Below are positions 15,066 to 23,377 of a stretch of DNA of 64,000 nt, piece by piece (position 1 is the stretch's first letter; every line of letters starts with the position of its first letter). A model generated the notes under the pieces. It was given only the letters and a program-made list of their open reading frames with translations, had not been told where the DNA came from and ran no database searches. Source of the DNA: Poseidonibacter ostreae (lineage in GTDB: Bacteria > Campylobacterota > Campylobacteria > Campylobacterales > Arcobacteraceae); NCBI RefSeq assembly GCF_009208075.1, contig NZ_WFKJ01000006.1:1-64000 (forward strand), given 5' to 3'. The position numbers and the translations under genes are program-made.

Positions 15066-16135
15066 TGGTTAAGAAAATGGATTTATTAAATAGAAGAATA
15101 ACAAATGAAGAAGCATTAGATTTAATCCAAAATGCTTCATTATTAGAATTAGGTGAATTAGCAACTAAAAGAAAGTTAGAGTTACATCCTGATAAGACAA
15201 CATCTTTTATAGTTGATAGAAATATTAATTATACAAATGTATGTTGGGTAGATTGTAAATTTTGTGCCTTTTTTAGACATGGAAGAGATGATGATTCTTA
15301 TGTATTAAAGTTTGATGAAATTGATGCAAAAATTGATGAATTATTAGAAATTGGGGGAACTCAAATCCTTTTCCAAGGTGGAGTTCATCCAAAATTGAAA
15401 ATTGATTATTATGAAGAGTTAGTTTCACATATTCATACAAAATATCCTCAAATAACTATTCATGGTTTTTCTGCAATTGAGATTAAATATATAGCAAAAG
15501 TATCTAAAATTACAATCTTAGAAGTTTTAAAAAGACTTCAAGATAAAGGTTTAAGTTCAATTCCAGGCGCTGGTGCAGAAATATTATCAGATAGAGTAAG
15601 AGATATTATTGCACCTAATAAAATGGATAGTCTTGAATGGATTGAAGTTCATGAGCTTGCACATTCAATTGGGATGAAAACAACAGCAACAATGATGTTT
15701 GGAACAGTTGAAACTGATGAAGAGATTATTGAACATTGGGAACTTTTAAGAGATTTACAAGATAGAACTGGTGGCTTTAGAGCTTTTATTATGTGGTCTT
15801 TCCAAGGTGCTAATACAACACTTTTAAAAGAGATTCCAGATATTAAACCTCAATCTTCAAATAGATACTTAAGATTACTTGCAGTTTCAAGACTTTATTT
15901 AGATAATTTTATGAATATGCAAAGTTCTTGGGTTACACAAGGCTCTTATATAGGTCAATTAGCTTTAAATTTTGGAGCAAATGATTTAGGAAGTACAATG
16001 ATGGAAGAAAATGTAGTTAAAGCTGCAGGAGCTTCAAATAGAATGAATCAAGAAGAGATGATTAGGCTTATTAAAGATGTTGGAGAAAAACCAGCAAAAA
16101 GAAATACAGCTTATGAGATACTTGAGAGGTATTAA
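15065..16135 (+). CDS. mqnC: Cyclic dehypoxanthinyl futalosine synthase
   Basis: MqnC is a radical SAM enzyme that cyclises dehypoxanthine futalosine in the futalosine route to menaquinone, the route used by Campylobacterota. The 356-residue protein has INYTNVCWVDCKFCAFFRHG, with cluster cysteines Cys60, Cys64 and Cys67, and later GGVHPKLKIDYYE and GAGAEILSDRVR, which fit MqnC better than MqnE. The ATG at 15065 overlaps the bamA stop; a second in-frame ATG at 15077 is possible. Confidence 0.92.
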   Translation: MVKKMDLLNRRITNEEALDLIQNASLLELGELATKRKLELHPDKTTSFIVDRNINYTNVCWVDCKFCAFFRHGRDDDSYVLKFDEIDAKIDELLEIGGTQILFQGGVHPKLKIDYYEELVSHIHTKYPQITIHGFSAIEIKYIAKVSKITILEVLKRLQDKGLSSIPGAGAEILSDRVRDIIAPNKMDSLEWIEVHELAHSIGMKTTATMMFGTVETDEEIIEHWELLRDLQDRTGGFRAFIMWSFQGANTTLLKEIPDIKPQSSNRYLRLLAVSRLYLDNFMNMQSSWVTQGSYIGQLALNFGANDLGSTMMEENVVKAAGASNRMNQEEMIRLIKDVGEKPAKRNTAYEILERY

Positions 16136-16139
16136 TCCT

Positions 16140-17435
16140 TTGATTAAAAAATTTAAAAAATATTTATTTGCATTAGTAATTTTACAAGGAAGTTTAATGA
16201 GTGCTACTATAAAGCATATAGAGATAAAAGGAATTAAAGTTCCAGTAGTTTTTGAAAAACAAAATAGTTTACCAATTTTAAATTTACAATTAGTTTTTCA
16301 AAATTCAGGTTATATACAAGATAAAGAGAAAAGTGGCTTAGCTAGTTTTTCTTCAAAACTATTAAATGAGGGAACAAAAGAGTTAGGTTCTACAAAGTTT
16401 GCACAAAAACTAGAAGAAAATGCAATTTCATTACATACTTCAAATGGTTTTGAAACTTTTGTTATTGAGTTATCAAACTTAAAAGATGTATCAAATAAAT
16501 CAATTGAGTTATTAGCTAAATTAATTAAATCACCTAACTATAGTGAAGATACACTTGCAAAGTTAAAGACATTAAAAACAGGTGAATTAAAAAGAAAAGA
16601 GAATGATTTTGATTATACTGCAAAGAATTTATTAAAAGCAAATCTTTTCAAAGGTACTGCTTTAGCAAACCCTAGTTCTGGTAGTTTAGAATCAATTGAA
16701 GATATTAAACTTAAAGATATAAAGACCTTTATCAATAATACAGTTAATTTAAATAATTTAATTATTGTTGCAGGTGGAGATTTTTCTTATAAAGAGTTTG
16801 CAAAGTTAATTAAACCAGTTTTAGATGTTTTAAAACCAGGTACTAAAAGAGAATTAGAAGAGATTAATTTTGTATCTAAAGATGAAGAAGAAACACTAAT
16901 TAAAGAAACTGAACAAGCATATATTTATTTTGGTAGTTCATATAAAGTAAGTGCAAGTGATAAGGATAGATATATCGCAAAAGTTGCTTCATTTATTTTA
17001 GGTGGTTCAGGTTTTGGTTCAAGACTTATGGAAGAAATTAGAGTAAAAAGAGGCTTAGCTTATAGTGCTTATGGTTCAGTATCAATTAATAAATCTCATA
17101 CATTCTTTAGTGGTTATTTACAAACTAAAAATGAAACAGCAAAAGAAGCACAAGCTTTAGTAAAAGAGATTATTAAAGAGTTTGTAAAAAAAGGTGTTAC
17201 AAAAGATGAATTAAAAGCTGCAAAAAACTTTTTAACAGGAAGTGAACCTTTAAGAAATGAAGTTTTATCACAAAGATTAAATAAGGCTTTTACTCTTTAT
17301 TATAGAGGTTTAGATCAAGGTTACCCACAAAGAGAACTAGATTTAATTCAAGATTTAAAATTAGAAGATTTAAATGAATTTATAAAATCTCATGAAGAGA
17401 TTAATAATTTAACATTTGCAATAGTAAGGAAATAG
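16140..17435 (+). CDS. M16 family peptidase homologue lacking the zinc motif
   Basis: The most likely start is the TTG at 16140, after AGAGGT. It gives a proper signal peptide (KKFKKY, then [14 protein letters not shown]) and a 431-residue exported protein. Earlier in-frame starts lie inside mqnC. It has the two-domain M16 layout, including [21 protein letters not shown] in the second half, the classic substrate-binding signature. The first domain reads [14 protein letters not shown] where active enzymes have GxxHxxEHxxFxGT, so the HxxEH zinc site is gone. It resembles the inactive partner subunit of paired periplasmic M16 proteases. An active partner is not in the window. Confidence 0.85.
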
Positions 17436-17436
17436 T

Positions 17437-18705
17437 TTGTTAAGATTTGCACCAAGTCCTACGTCGGATATGGATATTGAAAGTTTAAGAGTTGCAATAT
17501 TTAACTATATAATTGCAAAACAATTAAATGAAGATTTAGTAATAAGAATTGAGGATATAGATAAAGAAAAAAATATTGATGGAAAAGATAAAGAAATTTT
17601 AGAAATTTTAAGTCTTTTTTCAATTGATTATTTAACTGCAGCACATCAAAGTGACTCTTTAAAATATCATCAAAAAATGGCTATGCAACTTCTTACTAAA
17701 AAGAAAGCTTTTTCTTGTTTTTGTGGAGATGCTAAACTTCAAGAGTTAGAAAATGAAGCAAAAGCAAAAAACAAACCATTTGTATATGATGGTTTTTGTG
17801 AAACTTTATCAGATGAAGCTATTTTAGAAGTAAATGCACCTTTTACTGTAAGAATTAGTAAACCAAAAGAAAATATCAAGTTTACTGATAGTTTACAAGG
17901 TGATTTTGATATAACACCTGATGAAATTGACGCTTTTAATATTTTAAAACATGACAAAACACCAACATATGATTATGCCTGTGCAGTTGATGATATGTTA
18001 ATGGATATTTCGCTTGTAATTAGAAATAAAAAACATATTGCAAGTACTGCAAAACAAATACATATTAGAAACTCTTTAGGATATACAAAAGAGATAAAGT
18101 ATGCACACTTAGCTAATATTTCTAATGTTTCAAATTCTGTAAAAGATTTAATTGATGATGGCTTTCTTCCTAGTGCAATTGCAAACTATTTAGTTCTTTT
18201 AGGAAATAAAACTCCTAAAGAAATCTTTACTTTAGAAGAAGCTATAAAGTGGTTTAATCTTGAAGATATTTCAAAAGAAGCAGTTAAATTTGATATTGAT
18301 AAATTAAGATTTATTAATAAAAAACATTTAGAACAAATGGATGAAATGAGATTATCTAAGTTATTAGGATTTGCTGATTTAGATATTGGTAAACTTGGAA
18401 AGATTTATTTAGAAGAGTTAAGTACACTTAAAGAGTTAAAAAATAAAATAGATACTATTTTTGAAGCTAAAACAACATGTCCTGGTTTTGATGAAGAGTT
18501 TGCAAAGTTAAAAGAGTGTTTACAAAATGCACCTTATTATGATAATTTTGATGATTTAAAAAAATATATCATAGAAAAAACACAATTAAAAGATGATTCT
18601 TTAGACAAACCTTTAAGATTCATTTTAACTGGAAGTAAAAGTGGACCAGATATTTCTAATATTTATCCATTAATCAAAAATTATTTAGGAGAAATTGTAA
18701 AATGA
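17437..18705 (+). CDS. Glutamyl-tRNA synthetase paralogue with both catalytic motifs lost
   Basis: This 422-residue protein is a class I GluRS by overall sequence (MLRFAPSPT at the start; [22 protein letters not shown] near residue 245) and sits where Campylobacter has gltX, before yggT-slt. It starts with TTG two bases after the previous stop, with AAGGAAAT upstream. HIGH is replaced by DIES at residues 13-16, the preceding Gly is Ser10, and RIEDTD reads RIEDID (37-42). The KMSKR loop is absent: after YAHL (222-225) the chain runs ANISNVSN straight into SVKDLIDDG, about 11 residues shorter than in active relatives. ATP-dependent charging should be impossible. The frame is otherwise intact. 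It may be a pseudoenzyme with a new role, or a gene starting to decay. Confidence 0.85.
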
Positions 18706-18974
18706 TAGATGCCTTCATTACTTCAGTACTTACTGTAGTCTTAACGATTATATCTTTATATAAATGGGTTATTATAATCTCAGCGTTACTAACATGGGTT
18801 AGACCTGATCCAAATAATCCTATTGTACAAATGTTATATAGATTAACAGAACCAGCTTATGCCTTAGTGCGAAAATATATTCCTACTGTTTTTGGTGGAA
18901 TGGATTTAGCTCCAATTATATTAATCTTTGGATTAATGTTCTTAGAGATTTTCTTAAAAAACTTATTCTTCTAG
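18702..18974 (+). CDS. YggT family membrane protein
   Basis: This 90-residue protein has two hydrophobic segments (about 5-28 and 65-88) around the YggT motif [34 protein letters not shown]. Family members are inner-membrane proteins linked to cell shape, division or osmotic response in different bacteria; the exact role is unsettled. Its ATG overlaps the preceding stop by four bases (ATGA). The gltX-yggT-slt order matches Campylobacter. Confidence 0.92.
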
Positions 18975-21103: not shown

Positions 21104-23377
21104 TTATTTTAACTTTTGTGCTACAAGCTTATTAACTACTTGTGGGTTTGCTTTTCCGCCAGTACTTTTTAATACTTGACCAACAAAGAAACCTAAAAGC
21201 TTTGTATTTCCATTTTTAAATTTAGCAACATTATCTGGATTTTTTTCAATAATTTCATCGATAATTGGTGAAATTATAGCAGGGTCACTAATTTGTACAA
21301 GTCCTTTATCTTCAACTATTTTTGTTGGGTTTTCTCCACTTTTTACCATTTCTTCAAATACTTGTTTTGCAATTTTACTCGATATCGTGCCATCATCAAG
21401 GATTTTTACAAGTTGAGATATTTGACTTGCTGTAAATTTAAGTTCAGATGTATCTTTTTCTTTTAACTCTCTTGCTACTTCTGTTACAACAATATTTGCT
21501 AAACTAATAGGACTATTTAATGTTGTTAAACACTCTTGATAAAATGATGAAAGCTTTTCATCCCGTGCTAAAATATTTGCTACTTCATTATTTAATCCAA
21601 ACTCTTTTGAATACTTTTCAAATAATGCTTTTTCTTCATCACTCATAGCTGTAACTTCTCCAACTATTTGTTCATTTTTAGCTTGTATTTTTACTTGAGT
21701 ATTTTCTTTGTTTTTTTGCTCAGGTTTTTCAACTTTTGTTTTTTTACCCCAAGAGTCTTTAAGTCCAACTATTTTATTAAAGACAGGTTTTTCATCACTA
21801 TAATCAATTGGATCAGCATAAAAATACCCTTGTCTTTCAAACTGGAATCTTTCATCTATTTTTTCAAGTATAACAGCAGGCTCAATAAGTGCATTTTTAA
21901 TAACTTTTAATGAATTAGGATTTAAATCTTCAATTCCCTCAGGAGCTTCATTTTTAAATAATCTATCATAAAGTCTTACTTCAACTTTTTTTGCTGCTTT
22001 TGAACATACCCATTGAATAGCACTTTTTACTTTAATTCCACTAGTATCACTTCCACTTTTAGAATTAGGATAATATTCAGCTTTTATTTCTGTAATATTT
22101 CCATCTGAGTCTTTTATAACTTCTTTGCAAGAGATTATATATCCATGTCTAAGTCGAACTGCTTGTGTAGGAGTTAAACGAAAATATCCTTTTTCAGGAT
22201 TTTGGGAAAAATCATCACGTTCAATAAAAATCTCACGTGAGAAAGGTACTTTTCTTGAACCCTCTTTTGGAACATCATGTGGATAGTATGAAGCATCAAG
22301 TTCTTCACTACCTTCATAGTTTTCTATTGTAACTTTAAGTGGGTCAAGTACTGTTAATACTCTAGGTACTTTTTTATTTAAATCATCTCTAATACAAAAT
22401 TCTAGTTGTGCAACATCAACCATTGAATTAGCTTTAGCAACTCCAATTTGATCACAAAAATTTAAAATAGATTCTTTTGTATACCCTTTTCTTTTGTATC
22501 CAGCGATTGTAGGCATTCTTGGATCATCCCAACCATTTACATATTTACCATCAACTAATTCTAAAAGTTTTCTTTTACTCATTACTGTATAGTTTATTCC
22601 AAGACGAGCAAATTCATGTTGGTATGGTCGAGGTAATTCTAGTTTTAAAGTATCTAATACCCAGTTATAAATATCACGGTTATTTTCAAACTCTAGCGTA
22701 CAAATAGAGTGAGAAACATTTTCAATATAATCAGATAAACAATGAGCAAAATCATACATTGGATAAATACACCATTTATCCCCTGCTCTAAAATGATGAG
22801 CATGTCTAATACGATATAAAAGAGGATCTCTAAGCTTCATATTAGCAGCACCCATATCAATTTTTGCTCTTAATACATGTTCTCCATCTTTAAATTCGCC
22901 ATTTTTCATTCTTTCAAAAAGGTCTAAGTTTTCTTCAATAGTTCTATTAGCAAATTTACTTCGAACTCCTGCTTGTGTAACAGTTCCCCTATTCTCACGC
23001 ATTTGTTCTTCATTTACGCTATCAACATATGCCTTATTGATTTTAATAAGTTTAACAGCATAATCATATATTTTATCAAAATAATCAGAAGTAAAACATA
23101 CGTTTTCTCCCCAATCAAATCCAAGCCAAGAAACAGCATCTTTTAAAGCTTCTACATATTTCGTATCTTCTTTAGTTGGGTTTGTATCGTCCATTCTAAG
23201 ATTACAATGACCCTTGAAGTCTGATGCAATACCAAAATTTATACAAATAGATTTTGCATGCCCTATGTGAGGAAAGCCATTTGGCTCAGGTGGAAATCTA
23301 GTAATAACTTCTTTATATTTGCCAGAGTTTAAGTCCTCATTTACTATTGCATGTAAAAAATCTTTATTTTCACTCAT
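21104..23377 (-). CDS. glnS: Glutaminyl-tRNA synthetase with C-terminal YqeY domain
   Basis: GlnRS charges tRNA-Gln directly. The 757-residue protein has the HIGH motif at 37-40 (FPPEPNGFPHIGH), the MSKRKLLELV form of the second motif, and beta-barrel domains to about residue 555. A C-terminal YqeY/GatB-like domain of about 150 residues ends in LLGFFVGQVLKSTGGKANPQ. This fusion is known in a subset of bacterial GlnRS. Many Campylobacterota instead make Gln-tRNA with a second GluRS and GatCAB, so a GlnRS here, 2.4 kb from a disarmed GluRS, is notable. It sits inside an otherwise Campylobacter-like gene order, suggesting an insertion. Confidence 0.94.
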   Translation of the reverse strand: MSENKDFLHAIVNEDLNSGKYKEVITRFPPEPNGFPHIGHAKSICINFGIASDFKGHCNLRMDDTNPTKEDTKYVEALKDAVSWLGFDWGENVCFTSDYFDKIYDYAVKLIKINKAYVDSVNEEQMRENRGTVTQAGVRSKFANRTIEENLDLFERMKNGEFKDGEHVLRAKIDMGAANMKLRDPLLYRIRHAHHFRAGDKWCIYPMYDFAHCLSDYIENVSHSICTLEFENNRDIYNWVLDTLKLELPRPYQHEFARLGINYTVMSKRKLLELVDGKYVNGWDDPRMPTIAGYKRKGYTKESILNFCDQIGVAKANSMVDVAQLEFCIRDDLNKKVPRVLTVLDPLKVTIENYEGSEELDASYYPHDVPKEGSRKVPFSREIFIERDDFSQNPEKGYFRLTPTQAVRLRHGYIISCKEVIKDSDGNITEIKAEYYPNSKSGSDTSGIKVKSAIQWVCSKAAKKVEVRLYDRLFKNEAPEGIEDLNPNSLKVIKNALIEPAVILEKIDERFQFERQGYFYADPIDYSDEKPVFNKIVGLKDSWGKKTKVEKPEQKNKENTQVKIQAKNEQIVGEVTAMSDEEKALFEKYSKEFGLNNEVANILARDEKLSSFYQECLTTLNSPISLANIVVTEVARELKEKDTSELKFTASQISQLVKILDDGTISSKIAKQVFEEMVKSGENPTKIVEDKGLVQISDPAIISPIIDEIIEKNPDNVAKFKNGNTKLLGFFVGQVLKSTGGKANPQVVNKLVAQKLK

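Follow-up and report, generated by a model that had tools for sequence, protein, structure and literature searches.

The window, the whole 64,000-nucleotide stretch of DNA analysed here, carries a gene designated gltX2ps, whose product was recognised as a glutamyl-tRNA synthetase (GluRS) homologue devoid of its catalytic signatures. This gene and the features relevant to its interpretation are:

16077..17435, + strand: PqqL-like peptidase gene, upstream; conserved neighbour of intact and disarmed gltX2
17437..18705, + strand: gltX2ps, disarmed GluRS2 orthologue, 422 aa (family model, alignment, AlphaFold2, Foldseek)
17473..17484, + strand: former HIGH motif, now DIES, residues 13-16 (alignment)
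17545..17562, + strand: RIEDTD, now RIEDID, residues 37-42 (alignment)
17716..17799, + strand: span with Cys94, Cys96 and Cys121 (alignment)
18025..18036, + strand: former GEDH, now NKKH, residues 197-200 (alignment)
18124..18135, + strand: junction of an 11-residue in-frame deletion, KMSKR loop gone (alignment)
18702..18974, + strand: yggT, start codon overlapping the gltX2ps stop; conserved neighbour
21104..23377, - strand: fusion of GlnRS with a YqeY/GatB domain (family models)

The open reading frame begins with a TTG codon at 17437 behind AAGGA, comprises 422 codons and ends at 18703-18705, where its stop codon overlaps the yggT start at 18702. Frame, start context and coupling to yggT are therefore as described in an earlier reading made from the sequence alone. 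Alignment with the intact GluRS2 of relatives and with GltX1 of the same genome revealed the replacement of HIGN by DIES, and in comparison with intact orthologues TG is changed to TS (residues 9-10) and RIEDTD to RIEDID. Exactly 11 residues, including the KMSKR loop, are deleted in frame, which shortens the protein from 433 to 422; the sequence-only reading had put this deletion at about 11. A further loss, which that reading had missed, converts RGEDH to RNKKH (residues 196-200). It is confirmed that HIGH, GEDH and KMSKR are gone and that frame, start context and fold remain. The HIGH and KMSKS/KMSKR signatures of functional class I GluRS are missing from gltX2ps; ATP-dependent tRNA charging is predicted to be absent.

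Membership of the GltX family, claimed earlier, was corroborated by sequence and fold: the TIGR00464 model gltX_bact matched with 338.5 bits (cut-off 289.95). For annotation this means that the protein passes a glutamate--tRNA ligase model despite its lost catalytic motifs. The AlphaFold2 model (mean pLDDT 95.2, pTM 0.90) predicts that the fold is kept intact including the C-terminal helical body, and the top Foldseek matches were all of GluRS type (E 1e-32 and TM 0.85 to 2cfo). A GluRS-like catalytic fold is shared with GluQ-RS/YadB (Foldseek matches 4a91 and 1nzj). YadB is a truncated yet active enzyme with queuosine tRNA(Asp) as its substrate, whereas gltX2ps is full length and has no ATP motifs; identity with GluQ-RS/YadB was rejected on a score of 131.6 bits against a cut-off of 276.7 and on the presence of the C-terminal helical body.

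The gene order around gltX2ps is pqqL-gltX2-yggT-mltD, and both pqqL and yggT adjoin gltX2 at 86 of 103 Arcobacteraceae loci, intact and disarmed alike. Orthology and the common locus assign the protein, 50-85% identical to the other orthologues of the family, to the GluRS2 group. Hence, gltX2ps is orthologous to gltX2, which encodes GluRS2, the enzyme that forms Glu-tRNA(Gln) in Campylobacterota. It resembles the tRNA(Gln)-specific GluRS2 of Helicobacter pylori and other Campylobacterota in sequence, fold and C-terminal anticodon body, and intact Arcobacteraceae GluRS2 in synteny; it differs from GluRS2 in lacking the catalytic signatures and in residing in a genome with GlnRS. What had been called the normal gltX locus is actually the gltX2 locus and not that of the housekeeping enzyme, since GltX1, whose motifs are intact, is encoded separately elsewhere in the genome (G000:C135). 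Three PF00749 proteins were found in the source genome, namely gltX2ps, the canonical GltX1 and the GlnRS-YqeY fusion; the genome also encodes GatA, and AsnRS was not found in it. The indirect pathway that depends on GluRS2 goes with an absence of GlnRS, which does not hold here: glnS lies 2.4 kb downstream of gltX2ps, and the encoded enzyme has intact PHIGH and MSKRK signatures and a C-terminal GatB/YqeY domain. The likely cause of the disarming, a GlnRS captured by horizontal transfer, thus lies inside the window at 21104-23377, although the sequence-only reading did not name it.

The relation between GlnRS and disarming was examined in 104 Arcobacteraceae genomes, all of which gave a GltX-family match to the gltX2ps query (partial or GltX1 only in a few incomplete bins). 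GlnRS scored above the cut-off in 60 of them, and two more carried partial or damaged copies. Among the 99 genomes with a full-length GluRS2 orthologue, to which the motif table is limited, GluRS2 was disarmed in 56/60 genomes with GlnRS and intact in the other four, and it was intact in 38/39 genomes without GlnRS and disarmed in one. Most of these exceptions come from bins of low quality or with contamination. Three intact GlnRS-positive cases (G043, G047, G051) are fragmented assemblies resembling metagenome bins, and the GlnRS of G051 is cut by a contig end; the single disarmed case without GlnRS (G077) is 74% complete, and G072, also inspected, is ridden with frameshifts. In the fourth intact case, G045 (L217), the GlnRS-like sequence contains in-frame TAA and TAG codons, many where Gln is expected, and is probably a ciliate contaminant of this bacterial bin.

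In the order-wide sample, 107 of 299 genomes encode GlnRS above the cut-off. Outside Arcobacteraceae, 64 GlnRS-positive genomes of five families (f3, f5, f6, f15, f19) keep a GluRS2-like gene, nearly always disarmed and ranging from almost intact (G353, G215, G310, G275, G279) to heavily diverged; six GlnRS-negative control genomes of five families are all intact. The disarmed copy, considered rare in the sequence-only reading, is the rule in Campylobacterales genomes with GlnRS. Because the same disarmed state recurs in dozens of species and in many independent assemblies, an assembly error was ruled out. A few genomes of f5, f15 and f19 with intact motifs, together with G043, G047 and G051, indicate that disarming of GluRS2 does not follow immediately upon GlnRS capture. 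About two dozen GlnRS-positive genomes outside Arcobacteraceae gave GltX1-level matches only and have probably lost gltX2; the retained function is therefore not universal. As side observations, a single GltX match and no GlnRS above the cut-off were found in G155, G167 and G267 (genus g55) and in G118, G134 and G122, and in the near-complete, GlnRS-positive genomes G110 and G153 (family f8) no ordinary GltX1 reached the usual score.

A single disarmed ancestor was ruled out, as the disarmed copies do not form one clade and their deletions are of different sizes. On a tree of pqqL, yggT and mltD, the disarmed leaves of Arcobacteraceae fall into 17 separate clades, or 16 with weak nodes collapsed, and an order-wide GluRS2 tree with masked motif columns gave 25 disarmed clades. 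These counts presuppose that a loop, once deleted, does not come back; on this premise GluRS2 was disarmed independently at least 16 times in Arcobacteraceae and about 25 times order-wide. Every family with several members is monophyletic in the GluRS2 tree, whereas families are mixed and genera split in the GlnRS tree; GluRS2 is therefore inherited vertically and GlnRS horizontally, which suggests frequent horizontal transfer of GlnRS, including that of the window with its GatB/YqeY domain. The system amounts to a replicated natural experiment, in which an essential enzyme is relieved of its task and loses its chemistry while persisting as a protein.

The order of loss is uniform. Order-wide, HIGH without KMSK occurs in 15 sequences and KMSK without HIGH in none, which means that loss of the KMSKR loop never comes after that of HIGH. 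Such an order, the fact that this one loop was deleted in frame repeatedly and the company of GlnRS in nearly every disarmed lineage would fit an adaptive inactivation: active GluRS2 beside GlnRS would be harmful, because Glu placed on tRNA(Gln) competes and risks incorporation of Glu at Gln codons, and the remaining protein would serve as a competitor or sponge shielding tRNA(Gln) from GluRS1. We regard this explanation as the less probable one, albeit a serious contender. Positive selection is not needed for such an order, since KMSKR sits in an exposed loop that can be broken in more ways, and GatCAB is still there to repair Glu-tRNA(Gln).

Selection on the disarmed copies was estimated by a simple Nei-Gojobori procedure which, for these AT-rich genes, yields rough absolute values and a large gap to neutrality: dN/dS was 0.231 [0.204-0.260] for 25 non-overlapping disarmed pairs, a few of which may span some divergence from before disarming, 0.104 (0.080-0.129) for 13 intact pairs and 0.18-0.22 for gltX2ps against its nearest relatives. 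In the 25 disarmed pairs no nonsense change was observed, compared with some 674 expected under neutrality. These values bear on plain decay, according to which the arrival of GlnRS made gltX2 redundant and the open frame is a leftover. The ordered fall of the motifs, the disappearance of gltX2 from some GlnRS-positive genomes outside Arcobacteraceae and a few truncated or interrupted copies (G136 with 313 aa, G314 with about 300 aa, and G320) would agree with it. However, sister species showed no frameshifts or stops, and gltX2 persists in essentially all GlnRS-positive Arcobacteraceae after 16-17 independent disarmings. Simple decay was rejected on dN/dS and the absence of stops and is strongly disfavoured. 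The comparison across relatives supports the earlier proposal that the gene has been kept intact although its GluRS product is catalytically disarmed. Having lost catalytic residues while remaining under purifying selection, disarmed GluRS2 would qualify as an aminoacyl-tRNA synthetase (aaRS) pseudoenzyme.

Constraint is weaker in disarmed copies than in intact GluRS2 in all domains, and the relaxation is uneven. The rise in dN/dS from intact to disarmed copies was 4.2-fold in the second Rossmann half with KMSKR, 2.8-fold in the stem-contact domain, 2.3-fold in the first Rossmann half, 1.8-fold in the acceptor-binding domain and 1.7-fold in the anticodon body. Of 89 sites that hardly vary among intact GluRS2, 14 are kept in <60% of disarmed copies; the lost sites include H13, G15, Y178, N179, G197, D199 and K236-K239, the kept ones R3, C94, C96, C121, R139 and D185-M187. 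None of the 89 aligned GluRS2 sequences, intact or disarmed, departs from the three cysteines, whose counterparts in the alignment with E. coli GluRS are C98, C100 and C125, the zinc site of that enzyme. Constraint is lost mainly around ATP binding, and the tRNA-facing domains and zinc cysteines are kept.

The kept tRNA-facing domains would suit a trans-editing factor that retains only the hydrolysis of Glu-tRNA(Gln) and corrects mischarging by GluRS1, and hydrolysis of excess Glu-tRNA(Gln) by H. pylori GluRS2 is reported in the title of Huot 2011 (cited in PMC8406222). This possibility appears improbable to us, as constraint is relaxed at Y178 and N179, next to the glutamate pocket, and the hydrolysis chemistry may need the lost motifs. 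The retained domains could alternatively reflect fold stability and a protein-protein role rather than tRNA binding.

A structural role in a GatCAB or transamidosome complex, kept since GatCAB still makes Asn-tRNA(Asn), was considered as well. All Arcobacteraceae genomes and 50 of the 51 tested from elsewhere encode GatA, and AsnRS was found in none of the genomes tested; hence there is a reason, unrelated to tRNA(Gln), for GatCAB to persist. GlnRS-positive genomes that lost GluRS2 retain GatA just as well, and no dependence was visible. A link of GluRS2 retention to GatCAB being kept or to AsnRS being absent was accordingly rejected, the 51 genomes showing no difference, and membership of such a complex is very unlikely.

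We favour, at a probability of roughly 0.62, the interpretation of gltX2ps as a pseudo-synthetase left after a takeover, which would bind tRNA(Gln) beside GlnRS. In the ancestral state, GluRS2 would charge tRNA(Gln) with glutamate and GatCAB would then amidate it. A lineage that captures GlnRS would make Gln-tRNA(Gln) directly, so that catalysis by GluRS2 becomes redundant and its ATP and adenylate chemistry dispensable or unwanted. The KMSKR loop would go first, often by in-frame deletion, and then HIGH, the remainder staying under purifying selection. tRNA(Gln) would be bound through the acceptor-binding, stem-contact and anticodon-binding domains by a non-catalytic partner of GlnRS, which may for instance hold and hand over tRNA(Gln) or remove mischarged Glu-tRNA(Gln). 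The confidence differs between the parts: that disarmed GluRS2 arises in parallel with GlnRS and is maintained as a protein by selection is very probable, that it still binds tRNA(Gln) is slightly favoured, and any one specific downstream task is unlikely to be the right one. A tRNA-binding or regulatory role of gltX2ps, as proposed in the sequence-only reading, may be envisaged, and the maintenance of the disarmed protein suggests that it has another task in translation.

Genomic coupling of glnS and gltX2 provides a lead to such a task. Outside Arcobacteraceae, glnS lies at most 1.5 kb from the gltX2ps counterpart in 35 of the 64 GlnRS-positive genomes. In family f19 it is located directly upstream of gltX2, with an overlap of 1-8 bp in 18 genomes (L154, L155, L158, L178, L179, L186-L189, L191, L194, L195, L197, L205-L208, L210), and glnS and disarmed gltX2 are likely translationally coupled there. 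Most adjacent pairs in f15 and f5 are divergent, with 97-185 bp between the starts, and in Arcobacteraceae glnS rarely adjoins gltX2 (one locus within 1.5 kb). Since the nearly intact stages G353, G310 and G215 already show this adjacency, it precedes disarming, and we treat the coupling only as a lead to a non-catalytic partner. It is conceivable, at somewhat less than even odds, that GluRS2 has been converted time and again, upon GlnRS capture, into a non-catalytic protein whose dedicated partner is GlnRS or tRNA(Gln), a bacterial pseudo-synthetase of ~25 parallel origins with an overlapping glnS-gltX2 operon in one family. If true, a GlnRS partner of this kind would be a new bacterial translation factor.

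Other aaRS-derived proteins without charging activity are known. HisZ and similar proteins are aaRS paralogues without aminoacylation and resemble gltX2ps in this respect; HisZ belongs to another class and has another partner. A description of disarmed GluRS2 was not found in a literature search with little coverage of subscription journals. As far as the accessible text shows, Dasgupta and Basu 2014 (PMC3927822) described GlnRS alongside an obligatory GluRS2 in epsilonproteobacteria, suggested that GlnRS may be non-functional in those bacteria and examined the HIGH motif of GluRS2, with no loss reported there. The motif comparison reverses this suggestion: GlnRS looks functional, and it is GluRS2 whose catalytic motifs are gone. 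An aaRS homologue with an ablated active site that is conserved across species is described for metazoan mitochondria, where SLIMP acts as a SerRS partner (PMC10570016). SLIMP is a eukaryotic class II protein forming a heterodimer with its own catalytic paralogue, whereas gltX2ps is a bacterial class I protein with many origins, each after a different enzyme had arrived.
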